From positions 3,842,001 to 3,906,000 of the forward strand of contig NZ_CP030941.1 of NCBI RefSeq assembly GCF_036621415.1: a DNA stretch of 64,000 nt, in the 5' to 3' direction. The position numbers and the translations under genes were made by a program. The notes below the pieces were generated by a model, which saw nothing but the letters and a program-made list of their open reading frames with translations, did no database searches and was not told where the DNA came from. Position 1 is the stretch's first letter. Each line of letters begins with the position of its first letter. The stretch comes from Nitratireductor thuwali. Its GTDB lineage: Bacteria > Pseudomonadota > Alphaproteobacteria > Rhizobiales > Rhizobiaceae. Positions 45,078-59,168 of the stretch are shown in pieces.

Positions 45078-47054
45078 ATGAGCAAGCTCGACAATACCAT
45101 TTCACGCCGTTCCTTCCTTGCCGGCACAGCCGCCGCGGGCTCCCTTGTGATGCTGCACCCCTTCTCCGCGCGGGCGGCGGCCAACCAGGCGCATCTGCGC
45201 ATCATGGAAACCACCGACCTGCACGTGCACGTCTTCCCCTACGACTACTACGGCGACAAGCCCAACGACACGATGGGGCTGGCGCGCACGGCCTCGATCA
45301 TCGACGCGATCCGCGCCGAGGCGACCAATTCCATGCTGGTCGACAATGGCGATTTCCTGCAGGGCAACCCGATGGGCGACTACATCGCCTATGAGCGCGG
45401 CATGCGCGAAGGCGACGTCCACCCGATCATCAAGGCTATGAACACGCTCGGCTACGAGTGCTCGACCCTGGGCAATCACGAGTTCAACTACGGCCTGGAT
45501 TTCATGTTCAAGGTGCTTTCGGGCGCCAACTTTCCTTTCGTGTGCGCCAATCTGACCCGGGGCGGGCTCGCCGCGAACGGGCGCGAGGACGATCTGTTCC
45601 TGAAGCCCTATGTGATCCTCGACAAGAAGGTGAAGGACGGCGCCGGCCAGGAGCACACCGTCAGGGTCGGTCTGATCGGCTTCGTGCCGCCGCAGATCAT
45701 GAACTGGGACGCCAAGCACCTTGCCGGCAAGGCGATGACGCGCGACATCGTGCGCGCCGCCGAAGCCTGGGTGCCGCAGATGCGGGAGGAGGGCGCCGAC
45801 ATCGTGGTCGCCCTGTCGCATTCCGGCTTCGGCCCCCTGCAATATGAAGAGAACCTGGAAAACGCTTCCGCCCTTCTGGCGGGCATCGACGGCATCGACG
45901 CCATCGTGACCGGCCACAGCCACCTGGATTTCCCGGGGCCGAAATTCGAGGGCGTGGAAGGCGCCGACAACGCCAAGGGCCTGCTTAACGGCAAGCCCGC
46001 TGTCATGGGCGGCTTCTGGGGCTCGCATCTGGGCCTGATCGACCTGATGCTGGAGCGCGACGGCAATGCCTGGCGCGTGGCCGGCTCCACCAGTGAGGCG
46101 CGGCCGATCTTCGAGCGCGTCGAGCGCGAGACGAAGCCGCTCGTGGAAAGCAAGGCGGAGGTGGAGGAGGCCGCGCGCGAGGACCATGAGGCGACGCTGA
46201 AATATGTGCGGACCGCCGTCGGCAAGACATCCGCGCCGCTCCATTCCTATTTCGCGCTGGTTGCCGACGACCCGTCCGTGCAGATCGTCGCCCAGGCGCA
46301 GGTCTGGTACATCAAGGACATGCTGAAGGAGACGGCCTATAGCGACATACCCGTGCTCTCGGCGGCAGCTCCCTTCAAGGCGGGCGGACGTGGCGGCGCC
46401 GACTACTACACCGACGTGCCTGCCGGCGACGTTGCCATCAAGCACGTGGCCGACCTCTATCTTTATCCCAACACGGTCCAGGCCGTCCTGGTCACGGGCA
46501 GGAACGTGAAGGAATGGCTGGAAATGTCGGCGGGCATCTTCAATCAGGTCGAGCCGGGCAAGCCCGATCAGCCGCTGCTGAACGACGCCTTCCCCTCCTA
46601 CAATTTCGACGTGATCGACGGCGTGACCTATGCGATCGACCTCAGCCAGCCGCCGAAATACGATCCGAAGGGCGAACTGATCAATCCCGGAGCCAACCGC
46701 ATCGTCGACCTCAAATTCAACGGCGAGCCGATCGACGCGGAACAGAAGTTCATCGTCGCGACAAACAATTACCGCGCGGGCGGCGGCGGCAACTTCCCCG
46801 AGATCGGCCCCGACAAGCTGATCTTCGAAGCGCCCGACACCAATCGCGACGTGATCGTCCGCTACATCGTCGAGCAGGGCACCATCAATCCTTCGGCCGA
46901 CGCCAATTGGGGCTTCAAGCCGCTCGACGGAGCCTCGGTTCTGTTCGAGACAGGGCCGAAGGGGGCCGAATTCGCCGGGGAAGTGAAGGGCGTCGACATC
47001 GCGCCCGCCGGCGACGGCGAGAACGGCTTCGCGCTCTACCGGATCACGCTTTAG
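45078..47054 (+). CDS. cpdB: 2',3'-cyclic-nucleotide 2'-phosphodiesterase/3'-nucleotidase (CpdB-type), Tat-exported
   Basis: 658 aa from the ATG at 45078 with CCAGGGAGACAGATC upstream; the open frame beyond is repeat-derived. The N-terminus has a twin-arginine motif (SRRSFLAGTAAAG), so export should be by Tat to the periplasm. Metal-binding motifs: METTDLHVHVFPYD, VDNGDFLQGNP, LGNHEFNYGLDF and VTGHSHLDFPG. The C-terminal 5'-nucleotidase-type domain includes FIVATNNYRAGGGGNFPEIG. It hydrolyses 2',3'-cyclic nucleotides and 3'-nucleotides for phosphate scavenging. Confidence 0.93.
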   Translation: MSKLDNTISRRSFLAGTAAAGSLVMLHPFSARAAANQAHLRIMETTDLHVHVFPYDYYGDKPNDTMGLARTASIIDAIRAEATNSMLVDNGDFLQGNPMGDYIAYERGMREGDVHPIIKAMNTLGYECSTLGNHEFNYGLDFMFKVLSGANFPFVCANLTRGGLAANGREDDLFLKPYVILDKKVKDGAGQEHTVRVGLIGFVPPQIMNWDAKHLAGKAMTRDIVRAAEAWVPQMREEGADIVVALSHSGFGPLQYEENLENASALLAGIDGIDAIVTGHSHLDFPGPKFEGVEGADNAKGLLNGKPAVMGGFWGSHLGLIDLMLERDGNAWRVAGSTSEARPIFERVERETKPLVESKAEVEEAAREDHEATLKYVRTAVGKTSAPLHSYFALVADDPSVQIVAQAQVWYIKDMLKETAYSDIPVLSAAAPFKAGGRGGADYYTDVPAGDVAIKHVADLYLYPNTVQAVLVTGRNVKEWLEMSAGIFNQVEPGKPDQPLLNDAFPSYNFDVIDGVTYAIDLSQPPKYDPKGELINPGANRIVDLKFNGEPIDAEQKFIVATNNYRAGGGGNFPEIGPDKLIFEAPDTNRDVIVRYIVEQGTINPSADANWGFKPLDGASVLFETGPKGAEFAGEVKGVDIAPAGDGENGFALYRITL

Positions 47055-47160
47055 AGCGCCGCGCTTGCGAATGGATGCTGCACAAAGCTCTAAGCATCGT
47101 GCTTTCCGAAAATCGATTCCGGTTTTCGGGCCGATACTGTAGAGCCAGCCTGAAACGGTG
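47055..47160. repeat. Dispersed repeat, copy D
   Basis: It starts AGAGCGCCGCGCTTGCG and contains GCATCGTGCTTTCCGAAAAT then a matching TTTTCGGGCCGATACTGTA. This is shared with 60133-60260 and with the minus-strand module at 6290-6348. It follows cpdB directly. Confidence 0.75.
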
Positions 47161-47246
47161 CCGGGGGCCGACGTGAACGGGTCCCCGGCGCTTGACACTC
47201 TGCGCCGTCATTCGGCTCCTGCAGCGGATCGAAACGGGAGCGTGCA

Positions 47247-47540
47247 ATGATTCGCCATATCGTGTTCTTCAGCGCAACCAAGCCCGAGGATGTGGGGCGC
47301 ATCGCCGAGGCCCTGTCGATGCTGGGGGACATACCGCACAGCGAGTTCTTCGAGATCGGCCTCAACCGCAAGGTCGACCAGCTCGGCGGCGAGGTGGACG
47401 TAGTCGTCTATGGCGAATTCCGCGACGAGGAAGCCCTTGCCGCCTACAAGGCGCATCCGATCTATGCCGAATGCATATCGCTGGTGCGGCCGCTGCGCGA
47501 AATGCGCATCGCCGCCGACTTCGTGTCGAAGAAGGCGTGA
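47247..47540 (+). CDS. Dabb-type (stress-responsive alpha/beta barrel) protein
   Basis: 97 aa with CGGGAGCGTGCA before the ATG. It opens IRHIVFFSATKPEDVGRIAE and includes DVVVYGEFRDEEALAAYKAH and PIYAECISLVRPL, the usual Dabb/ferredoxin-like fold. Such small proteins form dimers. Function in bacteria is mostly unknown. It is between cpdB and a ribbon-helix-helix gene. Confidence 0.85.
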   Translation: MIRHIVFFSATKPEDVGRIAEALSMLGDIPHSEFFEIGLNRKVDQLGGEVDVVVYGEFRDEEALAAYKAHPIYAECISLVRPLREMRIAADFVSKKA

Positions 47541-47558
47541 GATCGGCGGCAGCCCCCG

Positions 47559-47822
47559 TCAGTCGTCGTTCGAGGCGTTGAGCTCTTCAGGACGTTTTCC
47601 TTCTTCCGCGTGCAGTTCGTGGGGAAGGTAGCCGAGCGACTCCGCCCACTCCCGGAAGGCCAGGCGCAGCGCCTCGGGGCGCGACATCCTGCCTCCGCTG
47701 CGGTCGATGAACATATCGAGGGCGCGCAGCAGGTCGGGCTGAAGCCGCACCAGCACGGGCGTGCCCTTGCCGGTGGCCCTCGGCCCTCGTTTTCGATGTG
47801 GGTGTTCTTTATCGATATCCAT
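47559..47822 (-). CDS. Ribbon-helix-helix DNA-binding protein (CopG/Arc-like)
   Basis: 87 aa. The strand-helix-helix pattern is TPVLVRLQPDLLRALDMFID followed by SRPEALRLAFREWAESLGYL. The N-terminus is basic (HRKRGPRATGKG). Such proteins are repressors or antitoxins; no toxin gene is adjacent, so it is probably a free-standing repressor. Convergent with the Dabb gene. Confidence 0.8.
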   Translation of the reverse strand: MDIDKEHPHRKRGPRATGKGTPVLVRLQPDLLRALDMFIDRSGGRMSRPEALRLAFREWAESLGYLPHELHAEEGKRPEELNASNDD

Positions 47823-48258
47823 TGAACCATGATATCATGGGCGCCGGCCGTCTGAACACCCGCCCGTGCGACAAGGCCGCCGGTGGGCAACAGGCCTGCG
47901 GCAACAGCGAGCCTGCCTCCGGTGAGCGGGCTGCTCGACGATCGTGAGCGAGCGGCCCGCAAGGGTGCGAACAAGGGCGGGGTAAAGAGGCCGGCGTCTC
48001 CACCCGGAGACATTGCCTGAGCTGCCGGCCCCTGCGGTTGCCCTTGACGGTCCGCCGCACTGCAGTGGTGATGGATTCGGCCGCCGAGCCCAACTCACAT
48101 TATGCAACAGCGTGTCACGATCCGGCCGCCGAAGGGGGCGGAGTGGCGGCCTGCTGCGGGCCAGCCAGCGCCCCTGCGCAGCGACCCTGCGGCGACAGCG
48201 GGAACGCCCTGCCTTCAAGGCGGGTTTCTCGATGGAGATCGATTCTCTAGGAAAGAAA
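47823..48258. other. 436-nt stretch with no supported gene
   Basis: Open frames exist on both strands because of the GC content, but none has a convincing protein pattern or ribosome site. No clear repeat is recognised. Confidence 0.4.
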
Positions 48259-48942: not shown

Positions 48943-49016
48943 GGCCTCGTGGCGGAGTGGTTACGCAGAGGACTGCAAATCCTTGCACCCCGGTTCGATT
49001 CCGGGCGAGGCCTCCA
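48943..49016 (+). tRNA. tRNA-Cys (anticodon GCA)
   Basis: 74 nt including CCA. Acceptor GGCCTCG/CGAGGCC, anticodon loop CTGCAAA giving GCA, T-loop TTCGATT. Its last 18 nt form attL of a mini-island. Confidence 0.97.
48999..49016 (+). repeat. attL-like site: 18-bp tRNA-Cys 3' end
   Basis: TTCCGGGCGAGGCCTCCA forms the end of tRNA-Cys. An identical copy lies at 50977-50994, 1978 bp downstream. Outside the 18 bp the two sites differ on both sides. Confidence 0.92.
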
Positions 49017-49066
49017 TCCTCCCTAATGGGAGTGACTAAGCGTTTGAATTGACTTGTTTATTCTCA

Positions 49067-49109
49067 GGGTGTGGCACAGGGGGACTGCCATCCCCTTTTG
49101 GGTGTGGCA
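49067..49109 (+). repeat. Paired GGGTGTGGCA motifs near attL
   Basis: GGGTGTGGCA occurs at 49067-49076 and 49100-49109, 33 bp apart. The same word reappears at 50883-50891 and inverted at 50933-50941 near attR. They may be arm-type recombinase sites or promoter-like repeats. Confidence 0.65.
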
Positions 49110-49161
49110 GTTCTATTCCCTTTATGAGCCTCTCAGCGATCTCTGTAAGCACCTCGAGTCC

Positions 49162-49326
49162 TCAGCTATTGATCGCGAGGTTAAGCGCTAGAATCACCAC
49201 GCGGCAGTTGTCTTTTGTGTAGCCGAGCGAGCTGTCGATCCGGTCAATGCTTGGTCGGAATGGCGATCTGCCATACTCTGGGTCGCTAAGCCGCGCCGAA
49301 GAGACCGCCGAGGGCGGCAAAGTCAT
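49162..49326 (-). pseudogene. HNH/endonuclease-like C-terminal fragment
   Basis: The 54-codon minus-strand frame ends SPFRPSIDRIDSSLGYTKDN followed by CRVVILALNLAINS. The pattern PSIDRID-x-GYTKDNCRVV is well conserved in phage-type endonuclease proteins. The usual N-terminal part is absent: a stop lies right upstream, and no continuation in another frame is obvious. It is taken as a decayed remnant of a phage or island nuclease. Confidence 0.6.
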
Positions 49327-49616
49327 TCATATCACGCGCTCGGTCAGCCCGGAAAAGCGTTCACAGGAGCTGCCCCTTGACTGTCATCTGCTCCGACTCT
49401 GATGGCACGGGAGGCGCGGTCACCAAGGTCAGCATGTCTTCCGGCAACGGCCGTTGCAGTGCAAAAACTGGAATCGGAATGCTCTCCTATCCAGACCACT
49501 TGCACTGGCATAACACTTGAGAACCGCTGTCTGGACTTTTTACGGATTTTCTCCATACGCCCTTAAGGCTTGGCGCTCAGATTGTTGGGTGATTTCAATC
49601 GCTGAGGTGAGCCAAA

Positions 49617-49766
49617 ATGCTTAGCAGCGCCCGTACCCACACCGAAAAGTTGGCCGAAACAACGCCGGTTCCAAGGCGCCCTTGGCGTTCCTTTTTGGGG
49701 ATGACTGTACTCATAGCCACTTTGGGATTTGGCTCTGGGTATGTCCACGCTTGGGTCTGCCTCTAA
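49617..49766 (+). CDS. 49-aa single-span membrane microprotein
   Basis: ATG with GAGGTGAGCCAAA as ribosome site. A hydrophilic N-terminus with RRPWRSF is followed by one hydrophobic helix (LGMTVLIATLGFGSGYV) and ends HAWVCL. It is short, but the strong ribosome site and topology support a real gene. Function unknown. Confidence 0.5.
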   Translation: MLSSARTHTEKLAETTPVPRRPWRSFLGMTVLIATLGFGSGYVHAWVCL

Positions 49767-49809
49767 GGTTCATTGAACTGGACTGCGGAAGTTCTCCGAA
49801 GGACATTGC

Positions 49810-50070
49810 TTACTTTATGCCGCGCCGCAGGTTCTCCATGAACTGCGGGTCAACCTTGATGCCGACACGCTTGCCGCCGCACTTCGTGCACCTTAGCTTC
49901 GGCTCGAGAGCATCAGCCCCATAGCCATGACAAGGGCCGAGCTTCCAGGCAAGCTCCATCAGATCCAGCTTGCTCGAATGTTGACACTTCGGATCGAAGC
50001 AGTGCGCCGTCAGCGAGTGGTTAAGCTCGATGAGCTTCCCGATGGTATCCACGCGAAACGATCTGGCCAT
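49810..50070 (-). CDS. Small zinc-ribbon-like protein
   Basis: 86 aa. Two cysteine pairs, CFDPKCQH and RCTKCGGKRV, are ~35 residues apart, with LDLMELAWKLG between. Each is a C-x-x-(x)-C knuckle, giving a four-Cys zinc site. Similar small proteins are found in rhizobial genomes and phages, probably DNA-associated. The ATG directly follows the stop of the frameshifted upstream gene, so they may share a transcript. Confidence 0.65.
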   Translation of the reverse strand: MARSFRVDTIGKLIELNHSLTAHCFDPKCQHSSKLDLMELAWKLGPCHGYGADALEPKLRCTKCGGKRVGIKVDPQFMENLRRGIK

Positions 50071-50291
50071 CTACTTCCTGCCTACCCCGGCGCGCACATA
50101 GCCCCAGCTGACCGACGCCTCCAGCGCCTGCACGCGGCTTTCCAGATAGTCGTTGGCGCCCAGCAGCGCCTTGACCGCCTCGCGCGCTGTGCAATAAACC
50201 GTGCCACATCGGGCGCCCGCGAAGCCAGTTTCCTCTCTTTATCGATAAGTGCGGCAAAGAGCGGTTGCTTGTGGTGTTGAGAGGCCGTCAC
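50071..50291 (-). pseudogene. Frameshifted small gene of unknown function
   Basis: From the ATG at 50291 the frame reads ASQHHKQPLFAALIDKERKL and ASRAPDVARFIAQR. The protein-like continuation is in another frame: AREAVKALLGANDYLESRVQ, ALEASVSWGYVRAGVGRK, stop at 50071-50073. A single-base indel around 50175-50200 restores a ~73-residue helical protein. The family is not recognised. It sits just before the zinc-ribbon gene. Confidence 0.6.
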
Positions 50292-50318
50292 ACCAGCACA
50301 TGCTGAACGACCCGGAAG

Positions 50319-50651
50319 CTACGCTCTTGCGCTGAGCGTGATCATGCCGATGGCGACAACCGCCAACACGATGCCAGCGGACTGGATTGGCGACAAGCGT
50401 TCGCCGAAGACCACAAGAGCGATGATGTTGACTGCAACCAGTTGGACCACGGCCGAGAGGCTCAGCGCGACTCCCATTCCGACTTCTCGAATGAGCCGAA
50501 GCATGATCAGGTTGCCGAGCGTGTAGAGGGCTAGGGTAAGCCCAAGCCACAGCCAGCTGTTCTGTGACAGTGCCCAGGCCTTCGCGGAACTGGCGGCAGC
50601 CAGAAAGGCCACAGTGGAGGCGCCAACGAGCGCGAGGTTGGCGGGGTTCAT
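50319..50651 (-). CDS. Small four-helix transporter-like membrane protein (SMR/EamA-like)
   Basis: 110 aa, with TTAGGATGTCGCCGT before the ATG. Four hydrophobic segments and the ending VVFGERLSPIQSAGIVLAVV then AIGMITLSARA match the half-EamA/SMR topology of EmrE. The membrane-embedded Glu14 of true SMR drug exporters is missing in the first helix (LALVGASTVAFLAAASSAKA). It might therefore be a chaperone, a partner subunit or use another substrate. It is cargo of the tRNA-Cys island. Confidence 0.75.
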   Translation of the reverse strand: MNPANLALVGASTVAFLAAASSAKAWALSQNSWLWLGLTLALYTLGNLIMLRLIREVGMGVALSLSAVVQLVAVNIIALVVFGERLSPIQSAGIVLAVVAIGMITLSARA

Positions 50652-50686
50652 ACGGCGACATCCTAATCTGACGCTTCACTGGAACT

Positions 50687-50755
50687 TCAGGTCCAGTCGT
50701 TGCCGGTTTCGATTTCATAGATCAACTGCGGCGAAGGGTCGAGTTCATTGTTCAT
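50687..50755 (-). CDS. 22-aa ORF upstream of the SMR-like gene
   Basis: ATG preceded by an optimal GGGGGAGGAACAC. It encodes MNNELDPSPQLIYEIETGND then WT. It ends 36 nt before the SMR-like start. It may be a leader peptide or the remnant of a longer gene; the ribosome site is the main support. Confidence 0.35.
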   Translation of the reverse strand: MNNELDPSPQLIYEIETGNDWT

Positions 50756-50882
50756 GTGTTCCTCCCCCAAAATGAATGGTGCCTTGTTCGACTGCGACTA
50801 TACTTATTCGGCATCCCCTCAGAACCCCGAAGGGTATGGGAAGATAATCCAGCAGTAGGGCCGCCGCTTTGTAGTGCCTCAA

Positions 50883-50941
50883 GGTGTGGCAGTGGACGGG
50901 CTAAGTGCCTGATTGACGGTCAGAGAATTATTTGCCACACC
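50883..50941. repeat. GGTGTGGCA motif pair (inverted) near attR
   Basis: GGTGTGGCA at 50883-50891 and its complement TGCCACACC at 50933-50941 face each other, 36-94 nt before attR. They match the motifs near attL. Confidence 0.65.
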
Positions 50942-50976
50942 ACCACGCAACGGCTTGATCCGGAATGCATAGAGCC

Positions 50977-50994
50977 TTCCGGGCGAGGCCTCCA
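50977..50994 (+). repeat. attR-like site
   Basis: TTCCGGGCGAGGCCTCCA, identical to the last 18 nt of tRNA-Cys (48999-49016). No tRNA is reconstituted here. Confidence 0.92.
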
Positions 50995-51092
50995 ATTTTC
51001 CGGGGCGCATCCGGCGGCTCGCTTCTCCGACGAGCCGATGCGCCGGGACCAGAGACAGCGCGCCGGGCGCGCAACAGACGGGAACGAGGGTG

Positions 51093-51767
51093 ATGACCGC
51101 CGATTTCTCCGAGCAGCGCGACAAGATGGTCGAAGGCCAGTTGCGCACGCAAGATGTCACGCATGTTCCCCTGCTGGAGGCGATGCGGGAGATTCCCCGG
51201 GAAGCCTTCGTTCCAGGCCGCCGCAAGAGCCTTGCCTATATCGACGAGGACCTCGAGATCCTGCCCGCCGTTCAGGGCGCGCCGCCGCGCTTCCTCATGG
51301 AGCCCGCTCCGTTTGCCAAGCTGGTGCAGCTTGCCGGCGTCAAGTCCTCCGACCTGGTGCTCGACGTGGGCTGTGCCACCGGCTATTCCTCGGCCGTGCT
51401 TTCCAAGGTGGCGAGTTTCGTCGTGGCGCTGGAATGCGATCCCCAACTGGCTGAGACGGCCAGCGCCACGCTGGCCGATCTCGATTGCGTCAACGTGACG
51501 GTGGTGACCGGACCGCTCGAGAAGGGCTATCCCGACGAGGCGCCCTACGACCTCATCTTCATCGGCGGCGCGGTCGATTTCGTTCCCGACGAGCTGATTT
51601 CCCAATTGGGCGAAGGCGGAAGGCTGGTTGCCGTTGTCGGACACGGCAACGCGGCGCGGGCCGAACTGTTCGTGAAGGAGGACGGCGTCGTCTCCTCGCG
51701 CCGCGCTTTCAACACCGCCGTTCGGCCGCTGCCTGGATTTTCGCGCGAGCCGGGTTTTGTTTTTTGA
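51093..51767 (+). CDS. pcm: Protein-L-isoaspartate O-methyltransferase family protein
   Basis: 224 aa from the ATG at 51093 (GAACGAGGGTG upstream; a GTG three bases earlier is equivalent). It shows the Pcm pattern: QRDKMVEGQLRTQDVTHVPL, REAFVPGRRKSLAYIDEDLE, the SAM loop VLDVGCATGYSSAVLSKVA and ALECDPQLAETA. The family repairs isoaspartyl residues, but alphaproteobacterial members beside tolC are divergent and their target is uncertain. The order pcm-tolC-popZ-valS is one I recognise from related genomes. Confidence 0.85.
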   Translation: MTADFSEQRDKMVEGQLRTQDVTHVPLLEAMREIPREAFVPGRRKSLAYIDEDLEILPAVQGAPPRFLMEPAPFAKLVQLAGVKSSDLVLDVGCATGYSSAVLSKVASFVVALECDPQLAETASATLADLDCVNVTVVTGPLEKGYPDEAPYDLIFIGGAVDFVPDELISQLGEGGRLVAVVGHGNAARAELFVKEDGVVSSRRAFNTAVRPLPGFSREPGFVF

Positions 51768-58972: not shown

Positions 58973-59168
58973 ATGCCGATTGCGGCCGAAAGCTGTGCGT
59001 ATCCCTGCCGAAGGCGCAACAATGCTGCGCAAGCACTTGAAACGGCGGCAAAACTGCCTCAGATAGTATGCGTCACCCAGCCCGGGCCCCTCTGGCAGGC
59101 AAGGCGTTGCCTGTGATGTCGGACTGAACGACAACGCGCTGACGCGGCGCATTGAATGCAAACGCTTC

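Follow-up and report, generated by a model that had tools for sequence, protein, structure and literature searches.

A 2-kb segment at the tRNA-Cys gene of Nitratireductor thuwali is very probably (about 90%) the deletion remnant of a larger, integrase-carrying prophage that has retained both of its attachment sites together with the putative arm sites of its integrase. This reading is comparative, being based on the empty site, the larger relatives, the order of the gene fragments, the absence of int and the retained repeats. The segment lies in a window of 64 kb, the whole stretch of DNA that was analyzed, and shows the following features:

48943-49016, + strand: tRNA-Cys (GCA), the target gene, complete on the attL side (ARAGORN, Rfam)
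48999-49016, + strand: attL core, 18 bp, 3' end of tRNA-Cys (exact repeat; one copy at empty sites)
49068-49076, + strand: putative integrase arm site GGTGTGGCA, attL side, +52 from the core end (repeat)
49093-49326, - strand: 3' relic of an HNH nuclease gene, 5' part gone, internal stop, open part 49162-49326 (phrog_3322, alignment A4)
49101-49109, + strand: second putative arm site, attL side, +85 (repeat)
49391-49463, - strand: short 3'-end relic of an SRAP gene (tblastx)
49810-50070, - strand: intact 86-aa ORF with zinc-ribbon-like cysteines (by eye), common to the N. luteus prophage (DNA match)
50071-50187, - strand: 3' end of the neighboring phage ORF (75 aa in N. luteus), cut off at the right (N. 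luteus match)
50319-50651, - strand: intact 110-aa ORF, EamA-like small membrane protein (Pfam EamA, N. luteus match)
50883-50891, + strand: putative arm site GGTGTGGCA, attR side, -94 (repeat, conserved position)
50902-50914, + strand: IHF-like site between the attR arms, one mismatch to the pattern (pattern match)
50933-50941, - strand: putative arm site, inverted, attR side, -44 (repeat)
50977-50994, + strand: attR core, 18 bp (exact repeat)
51090-51767, + strand: pcm-type methyltransferase gene (putative name), right flank and right-hand anchor (protein match)

A sequence-only reading of this DNA had described perfect 18-bp repeats 1978 bp apart, the first of them ending tRNA-Cys, and this description proved accurate. 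The repeat, TTCCGGGCGAGGCCTCCA, is exact at 48999-49016 and 50977-50994, its identity does not extend by a single base beyond the core on either side, and the 4.75-Mb genome (G000) contains no third exact copy. When the window was shuffled 100 times with its dinucleotides preserved, no shuffle contained two matches, even with up to three mismatches allowed. The segment is thus flanked by the attL and attR sites of a site-specific integration event. Its GC content is 56.7%, compared with 65.1% in the rest of the window, a value as low being reached in none of 621 windows of 1960 bp (step 100 bp, including windows that overlap it). The reported shift in base composition therefore stands; as to gene content, the interior holds gene fragments and two short intact ORFs rather than well-defined genes.

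The existence of an empty tRNA-Cys/pcm junction in related genomes, proposed as a check, was verified in four of 16 congeners (G001, G006, G009 and G013), in which 79-83 bp separate tRNA-Cys from pcm and only one 18-mer is present. Two further congeners (G010 and G015) have distances of 326 and 708 bp and likewise one 18-mer, while six (G002, G005, G008, G011, G012 and G014) are uninformative, as the two genes are either not on one contig or separated by over 100 kb. The empty sites thus carry one 18-mer instead of both, and the interior is not conserved synteny, so that neither of the outcomes named in advance as contradicting an insertion was seen. The pcm-type protein was matched in 100 of the 101 genomes searched, paralogues counted.

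Larger islands with the same ends at the same tRNA-Cys, a search for which the sequence-only reading had also proposed, were found as well, carrying an integrase at their left end. Exact 18-mers delimit elements of 47,585 bp in Nitratireductor luteus (G004), 46,756 bp in G219, 56,724 bp in Mesorhizobium G045 and 73,876 bp in Phyllobacterium brassicacearum (G265). In the last genome, there are three 18-mers, spaced by 13.1 kb and 73.9 kb, and the integrases differ, indicating tandem insertion at tRNA-Cys. Annotation of the larger elements covered the N. luteus prophage (~47.6 kb, between the same two 18-mers at tRNA-Cys/pcm), in which nine of the ten proteins scanned had Pfam matches, comprising an integrase, terminase GpA, a lambda-type portal, an S49 peptidase, a DUF, a tail protein, a muramidase, SRAP and a D12 methyltransferase. 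The element of Mesorhizobium G141 is divided between contigs. Two relatives agree less well with this picture: G007 possesses the integrase together with attL arms, but its other 18-mer is on another contig and devoid of arms, and G279 shows the attR layout, but only a distant integrase (30% identical to that of P. brassicacearum) and no left core within five mismatches. Pairwise identities among the attL-side integrases of G004, G007, G219, G045, G265 and G141 are 56-79%.

Short sites are repeated at fixed distances on both sides of the cores. The motif GGTGTGGCA occurs four times in the window, always within the segment, a number reached in none of 100 shuffles, and we infer that it is bound by the integrase, i.e. 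that it represents an arm site. Comparable attL arms are located at +51/+85 in P. brassicacearum (one mismatch each) and +53/+97 in Mesorhizobium G141; in G004, G007, G219 and G045, they are found at about +3 (inverted) and +86 instead. The attR arm pair has identical spacing in every related attR found, with the -94 position matching in the other six genomes that show the pattern and the length of the layout being equal in all seven. A looser search with 7 x 7 spacing combinations again returned a single spacing, in six of six named records and three of three viral contigs found again. Between these arms lies what we take, from its consensus, to be an IHF site. This pattern is strict in six of the seven attR sites compared, the exception being the N. 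thuwali segment, where the mismatch is possibly a sign of decay.

The interior of the segment contains recognizable gene fragments and the two intact short ORFs, which have relatives in N. luteus. Over ~268 bp from the core, its left end (48999-49266) shows 68% identity to that of the inner P. brassicacearum element; this end includes the HNH relic, which matches phrog_3322 at 2.5e-10 (5.7e-11 with one stop inside) and alignment A4 at 4.6e-19 with one internal stop. The SRAP relic is 48% identical over 23 codons to a gene of the N. luteus prophage, whose SRAP identity is a Pfam call, and 90% identical over 20 codons to the SRAP gene of a second N. thuwali prophage. Further to the right, 49817-50187 is 79% identical to G004:C3:89541-89911, which encodes an ORF of the same length as the 86-aa ORF (dN/dS 0.225). 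Homology to the N. luteus prophage therefore follows phage order along the segment, from the SRAP 3' end through the 86-aa ORF block to the attR end, where 66 of the 96 bp preceding attR inside the segment are identical; most of the BLAST alignment that gives 85% here is host flank. The stretches 49463-49810 and 50188-50318 had no match in any search run, which leaves part of the interior unexplained.

The EamA-like ORF may have a different origin. It matches Pfam EamA at 1.3e-5, below the curated cut-off, and 50319-50691 is 93% identical to G004:C2:149622-149994, with a dN/dS of 0.117. It is possibly captured cargo. Its dS to N. luteus is 0.253, compared with 0.588 for pcm, a difference that would fit transfer, although a single gene pair is thin evidence. 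Among the 12 loci with relatives, the N. luteus copy shares neighbors with none of the other 11. Within these 11, however, four pairs have one neighbor in common each, so that the chromosomal location of the gene may be conserved in some members of the genus.

The segment was reported to lack an integrase, and in agreement with this, none of the eight PF00589 places in the N. thuwali genome lies between the 18-mers. The N. luteus integrase itself has no match in this genome at E 1e-3; with no cognate integrase detected there, the mobility of the segment would be latent at most. The eight longer ORFs of the segment were scanned, three of them twice; all are short, none matched a virion gene, and no replication, packaging, regulatory or hijack gene was recognized with Pfam, PHROGs and NCBIfam. 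Two candidates for a closer relationship were rejected. A 52.6-kb island in G003, considered as a parent, has the same 18-mers, but its integrase is only 34-39% identical to the family, and neither end has an exact or one-mismatch GGTGTGGCA within 200 bp inward of its core, the one near-match being outside attR. The second N. thuwali prophage (~C1:4085-4124 kb, near tRNA-Ser), considered as a source or helper, has SRAP and lysozyme regions in common with the N. luteus prophage, but there is no exact GGTGTGGCA in 56.9 kb, and its integrase does not belong to the tRNA-Cys family.

These comparisons support the first of the two options offered by the sequence-only reading, an integrase-carrying element reduced by deletion, and suggest the following course of events. 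A temperate phage would have entered the chromosome at the tRNA-Cys 3' end by means of a tyrosine integrase of ~400 aa, whose gene lay just inside attL. Most of the prophage would then have been deleted, ~45 kb assuming a length like that of the N. luteus prophage. The HNH gene between int and attL is truncated at its 5' side, and int, which lay beyond it, is missing, presumably lost through the same deletion. No head or tail gene remains; short stretches persist in phage order, with the EamA-like gene among them. With cores and putative arms surviving on both sides, the segment may now behave as a stable, non-autonomous element, whose excision in trans could in principle follow the entry of a phage that supplies a cognate integrase (and excisionase). 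The kind of decay looks ordinary, and the ends appear unusually well kept.

The parent phage itself was not seen, and the left end of the segment resembles the HNH-type element of P. brassicacearum, whereas its middle resembles the prophage of N. luteus, which has no HNH gene at attL. It is conceivable, if rather improbable, that the segment is a hybrid generated by recombination of two tandem elements at tRNA-Cys, with its left end from one and its right end from the other. Such a history, for which the tandem insertion in P. brassicacearum provides a precedent, would be a variant of decay and not fully exclusive of the main reading. However, the attR layout of the N. luteus prophage recurs in the HNH-type elements of G265 and G141, so that one parent suffices, and the N. 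thuwali genome lacks a third exact 18-mer.

The sequence-only reading had also considered a satellite mobilized in trans. The maintenance of the segment as a small phage satellite dependent on a helper integrase might be suggested by the retention of both att sites and all putative arm sites and by the two intact ORFs with their dN/dS values relative to N. luteus. It is nevertheless very unlikely, and no positive evidence for it emerged. The host genome lacks a cognate integrase, and the segment contains phage gene fragments instead of its own set of genes, with neither an integrase nor replication- or packaging-hijack functions. It was not found as a unit in several hosts: its DNA was matched in 19 of 101 genomes (N. 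thuwali included, one genome per species), none of the matches outside N. thuwali covering the segment, and no similar short element was detected. There was no match in 50,697 phage records, and in the best 20 of 21 plasmid records the tRNA part alone was matched. A chance or tRNA-derived origin of the second 18-mer, with the segment being ordinary intergenic DNA, as the absence of a long ORF from most of it might suggest, is scarcely credible given the empty sites with one 18-mer, the larger islands with the same 18-mers at the same tRNA, the GC content lower by 8 points and the conserved repeats at fixed distances.

With phage gene pieces in phage order but no excision or virion genes, the segment compares best with defective (cryptic, 'grounded') prophages, described in the excerpted text of one source as non-excisable, fixed in the chromosome and open to deletions and insertions (PMC6379469). 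It is probably likewise a fixed remnant; here, ~2 kb are left, including both att sites and all putative arm repeats. CIMEs (cis-mobilizable elements) are similar in having lost their integration genes while keeping attL and attR (PMC5704250, in excerpt). However, they derive from ICEs or IMEs, whereas the relative of the segment is a prophage encoding terminase, portal and tail proteins, and there is no accretion with a helper. The H47 genomic island of Escherichia coli, as portrayed in part of its report, is also small and bounded by attL and attR without a recombinase of its own; it comprises 13 kb, makes a microcin, contains extensive imperfect repeats and has been demonstrated to excise (PMC5426353), whereas none of these traits is known for our segment. 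The tRNA-Cys elements of G004, G141, G045, G219 and G265 use the same tRNA, 18-bp core and attR layout, and those of N. luteus and P. brassicacearum also share related gene fragments with it, but the relatives span 47-74 kb between the cores and carry an integrase, compared with 2 kb and none. In the excerpts of the matches listed for cis-mobilizable elements, defective prophages and Nitratireductor prophages, the segment is not described.

The gene order in P. brassicacearum and Mesorhizobium G141 is attL, HNH, Int, and an HNH nuclease encoded after int in related elements has an integrase-like N-terminal domain. Pfam returned nothing for the P. brassicacearum protein, even at E 10, and among the literature matches listed, the excerpts describe no HNH nuclease with an integrase arm domain. 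It is a rather doubtful possibility that the int operon of the parent lineage also produced, between int and attL, an HNH nuclease with a copy of the N-terminal (arm-binding type) integrase domain, which could guide it to the att arms, and that the relic at 49093-49326 is its last trace. Such a nuclease could cut the arms of rival phages using the same tRNA or act on the att sites of the phage that encodes it.

Collectively, comparison of the segment with the larger elements established how the att sites of a tRNA-Cys integrase family are arranged in Nitratireductor, Mesorhizobium and Phyllobacterium, with the core, arms at -94/-44 and an IHF-like site. The segment itself represents a natural near-minimal substrate, with both att sites and the putative arms, little in between and a host whose genome yielded no cognate integrase. 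Moreover, the degraded left end drew attention to a small module that recurs among the relatives, in which the integrase gene precedes that of an HNH nuclease bearing an integrase-like N-terminal domain; this module raises the question of nucleases aimed at attachment sites.

Sequence comparison shows that the segment arose by insertion at tRNA-Cys with an 18-bp duplication, that it is kin to a larger prophage, and that both cores and the internal repeats have been retained. Its features are listed below in window positions.

48999-49016: attL core, TTCCGGGCGAGGCCTCCA, at the tRNA-Cys 3' end, exact repeat
+52 and +85 from the attL core: copies of GGTGTGGCA, the inferred integrase arm site, exact matches
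49391-49463: relic of a SRAP 3' end, weak translated match to the prophage of Nitratireductor luteus (G004)
49817-50187: block with an 86-aa ORF, corresponding to G004 89541-89911 at 79%
50319-50651: EamA-like ORF of 110 aa, intact
-94 and -44 (inverted) from the attR core: further copies of GGTGTGGCA, exact matches
50977-50994: attR core, TTCCGGGCGAGGCCTCCA, exact repeat of the attL core

The repeat spans exactly 18 bp, with differing bases adjoining both cores on either side, and no third exact copy exists in the 4.75-Mb genome. GC content is 56.7% inside the segment versus 65.1% outside. The perfect repeats at tRNA-Cys and the change in composition between them, both claimed in the sequence-only reading, are borne out. 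Elsewhere in the window, a terC RNA motif (RF03067) lies at 59074-59131 and exceeds its gathering score.

Among 16 genomes of the genus, this one included, 12 contain one exact 18-mer and four contain two (N. thuwali, its congener N. luteus, G003 and G007). The sequence-only reading had suggested looking for an empty junction between tRNA-Cys and the methyltransferase gene pcm and for larger islands with the same ends, and both are present. The site is empty in G001, G006, G009 and G013, with a gap of 79-83 bp and a single 18-mer each; the distance from attR to pcm in the window is 95 bp. In N. luteus, tRNA-Cys and pcm are separated by an element whose two 18-mers are 47,585 bp apart; the left host flank aligns with that of the window at 80%, and the right one at about 85%. 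The attR DNA of this genome, together with the adjoining 200 bases to its left, has the identical sequence in an N. luteus record. Short gaps with one 18-mer also occur in G010 and G015, and the two genes are non-adjacent in G007 and six other genus genomes. At one G007 locus (L068, G007:C27:45235), a family integrase and attL arms adjoin tRNA-Cys, yet pcm is 35 kb away; its second 18-mer lies on a different contig (L069, C2:159249), where the similarity to tRNA extends over 51 bp and the arms are absent. The G003 island between the same 18-mers (52.6 kb, G003:C31:149534-202150; L052, L066, L067) has a distant integrase and no GGTGTGGCA arms, indicating that two integrase types use one tRNA site. 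Phyllobacterium brassicacearum (G265) carries three exact 18-mers in series at tRNA-Cys (L133, G265:C76:63502 and 76592; L134, 150468), delimiting two elements in tandem, one of 13.1 kb and one of 73.9 kb, whose integrases differ.

From attL to attR, the N. luteus element encodes, by Pfam name, a tyrosine integrase (46971-48194, minus strand), terminase GpA, a lambda-type portal, an S49 peptidase, a tail protein, an N-acetylmuramidase, a D12 methyltransferase and SRAP; one of the 10 ORFs scanned had no match. The homology of the segment to this element is collinear, comprising the SRAP 3' end, the 86-aa ORF block and the attR end (66 of 96 bp identical). Between the matched blocks, 699 bp in N. 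luteus correspond to 354 bp in the segment, and 4.5 kb to 0.7 kb, which calls for more than a single deletion or replacement. A second N. thuwali prophage near tRNA-Ser (G000:C1, about 4085-4124 kb; L097-L099) has SRAP, lysozyme and tail regions in common with the N. luteus prophage.

All four copies of GGTGTGGCA in the 64-kb window fall within the segment, whereas shuffled windows contained a mean of 0.32 and none of 100 contained four. At the four empty sites, no exact copy was found within 200 bp of the core; the G001 site has one near-match. With one base of play per gap, the attR layout was found in seven of 394 genomes of the family (N. thuwali, N. luteus, the Mesorhizobium genomes G045 and G141, G219, P. 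brassicacearum and G279). Allowing seven lengths per gap, we obtained six records from the named genome collection (N. luteus, Mesorhizobium camelthorni, M. alhagi, Phyllobacterium pellucidum, a Mesorhizobium MAG and P. brassicacearum) and, with a shorter core, three from viral contigs, all nine with identical spacing. Because five of the six named records are identical in DNA to G004, G279, G141, G045 and G265, the independent total is below the sum. A pattern resembling the IHF consensus lies at position 20 in six of the seven attR sites, the window copy having one mismatch.

Integrases encoded next to the attL core share 56-79% identity among G004, G007, G219, G045, G265 (inner element) and G141, and the G003 enzyme is 34-39% identical to this family. 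A family integrase adjoins the core in five of the seven attR-layout genomes (G004, G219, G045, G265 and G141); none was found in N. thuwali, also one of the seven. None of its eight PF00589 proteins matches the family (BLASTP, 1e-3), nor does the N. luteus integrase have a match in its genome at E 1e-3, in agreement with the earlier claim that the segment carries no integrase. A PHROG endonuclease family match at 49126-49275 is interrupted by one stop. The same HNH family lies just inside attL, next to an integrase gene, in the inner G265 element (C76:76721-77053) and in G141 (C279:18168-18488), and adjoins an integrase in G279; matches occurred in five of eight genomes searched, three more of them on G004:C5, G141:C289 and G279:C303, with none in G007, G219 or G045. 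The left end of the window aligns with that of G265 at 68% over about 268 bp from the core onward. Given this alignment and the HNH match, the retained DNA stops within the HNH gene, and int, its next neighbour in G265 and G141, is by comparison absent.

A published account (PMC10448857) describes homing endonucleases that include HNH nucleases with AP2 domains, as well as nucleases that acquired a domain from a rival element. In G265, G141 and G279, the HNH gene start overlaps the int end in the same direction, and the first 50 residues of the HNH protein are similar to the N-terminal part of the integrase. A profile of eight integrase N-termini clearly matched four of 25 HNH proteins (G279, 4.2e-17; P0003, 5.7e-13; P0001 from G265, 1.1e-11; G141, 1.1e-11) and not the other 21; the best of 2500 shuffled sequences reached 0.26. 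Contexts were viewed at seven further loci, six of 21 viral loci and one from another search. Two of the seven, viral contigs L162 and L163, have an integrase followed by an HNH protein with an integrase-like start (BLASTP 1e-6 and 3e-6, small set); the L162 integrase is cut by the contig end, and that of L163, which belongs to another type, lies at a distance of about 220 bp. At the other five, no neighbouring integrase was found with our own set of integrases, a comparison that could overlook distant types. An integrase thus adjoins the domain-bearing HNH gene in all five contexts seen, P0003 being outside this count:

L133:14692-16471 (G265), integrase and HNH
L137:746-2603 (G141), integrase and HNH
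L143:1190-2855 (G279), integrase and HNH
L162:30-1148, integrase and HNH
L163:2651-4525, integrase and HNH

Since AP2-HNH homing endonucleases are known and the integrase arm domain is AP2-like, the pairing of int with such an HNH gene may be one form of a theme already described.

The DNA around the EamA-like ORF (50319-50691), whose sole DNA match within the N. thuwali genome is itself, is 93% identical to G004:C2:149622-149994, a copy on a different contig from the N. luteus prophage and adjoining ORFs that look transposase-like by eye. The ORF scores under the NCBIfam and Pfam cut-offs. Against G004, its dN/dS is 0.117 and its dS 0.253 (pcm dS, 0.588), and it may have been under selection.

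Int is predicted to bind the retained GGTGTGGCA repeats, and excision may be possible on entry of a cognate phage. In this respect, the segment works like a cis-mobilizable remnant, or CIME, but it is not one, because the relative from which it derives is a phage. The segment is a well-preserved example of an already known kind.
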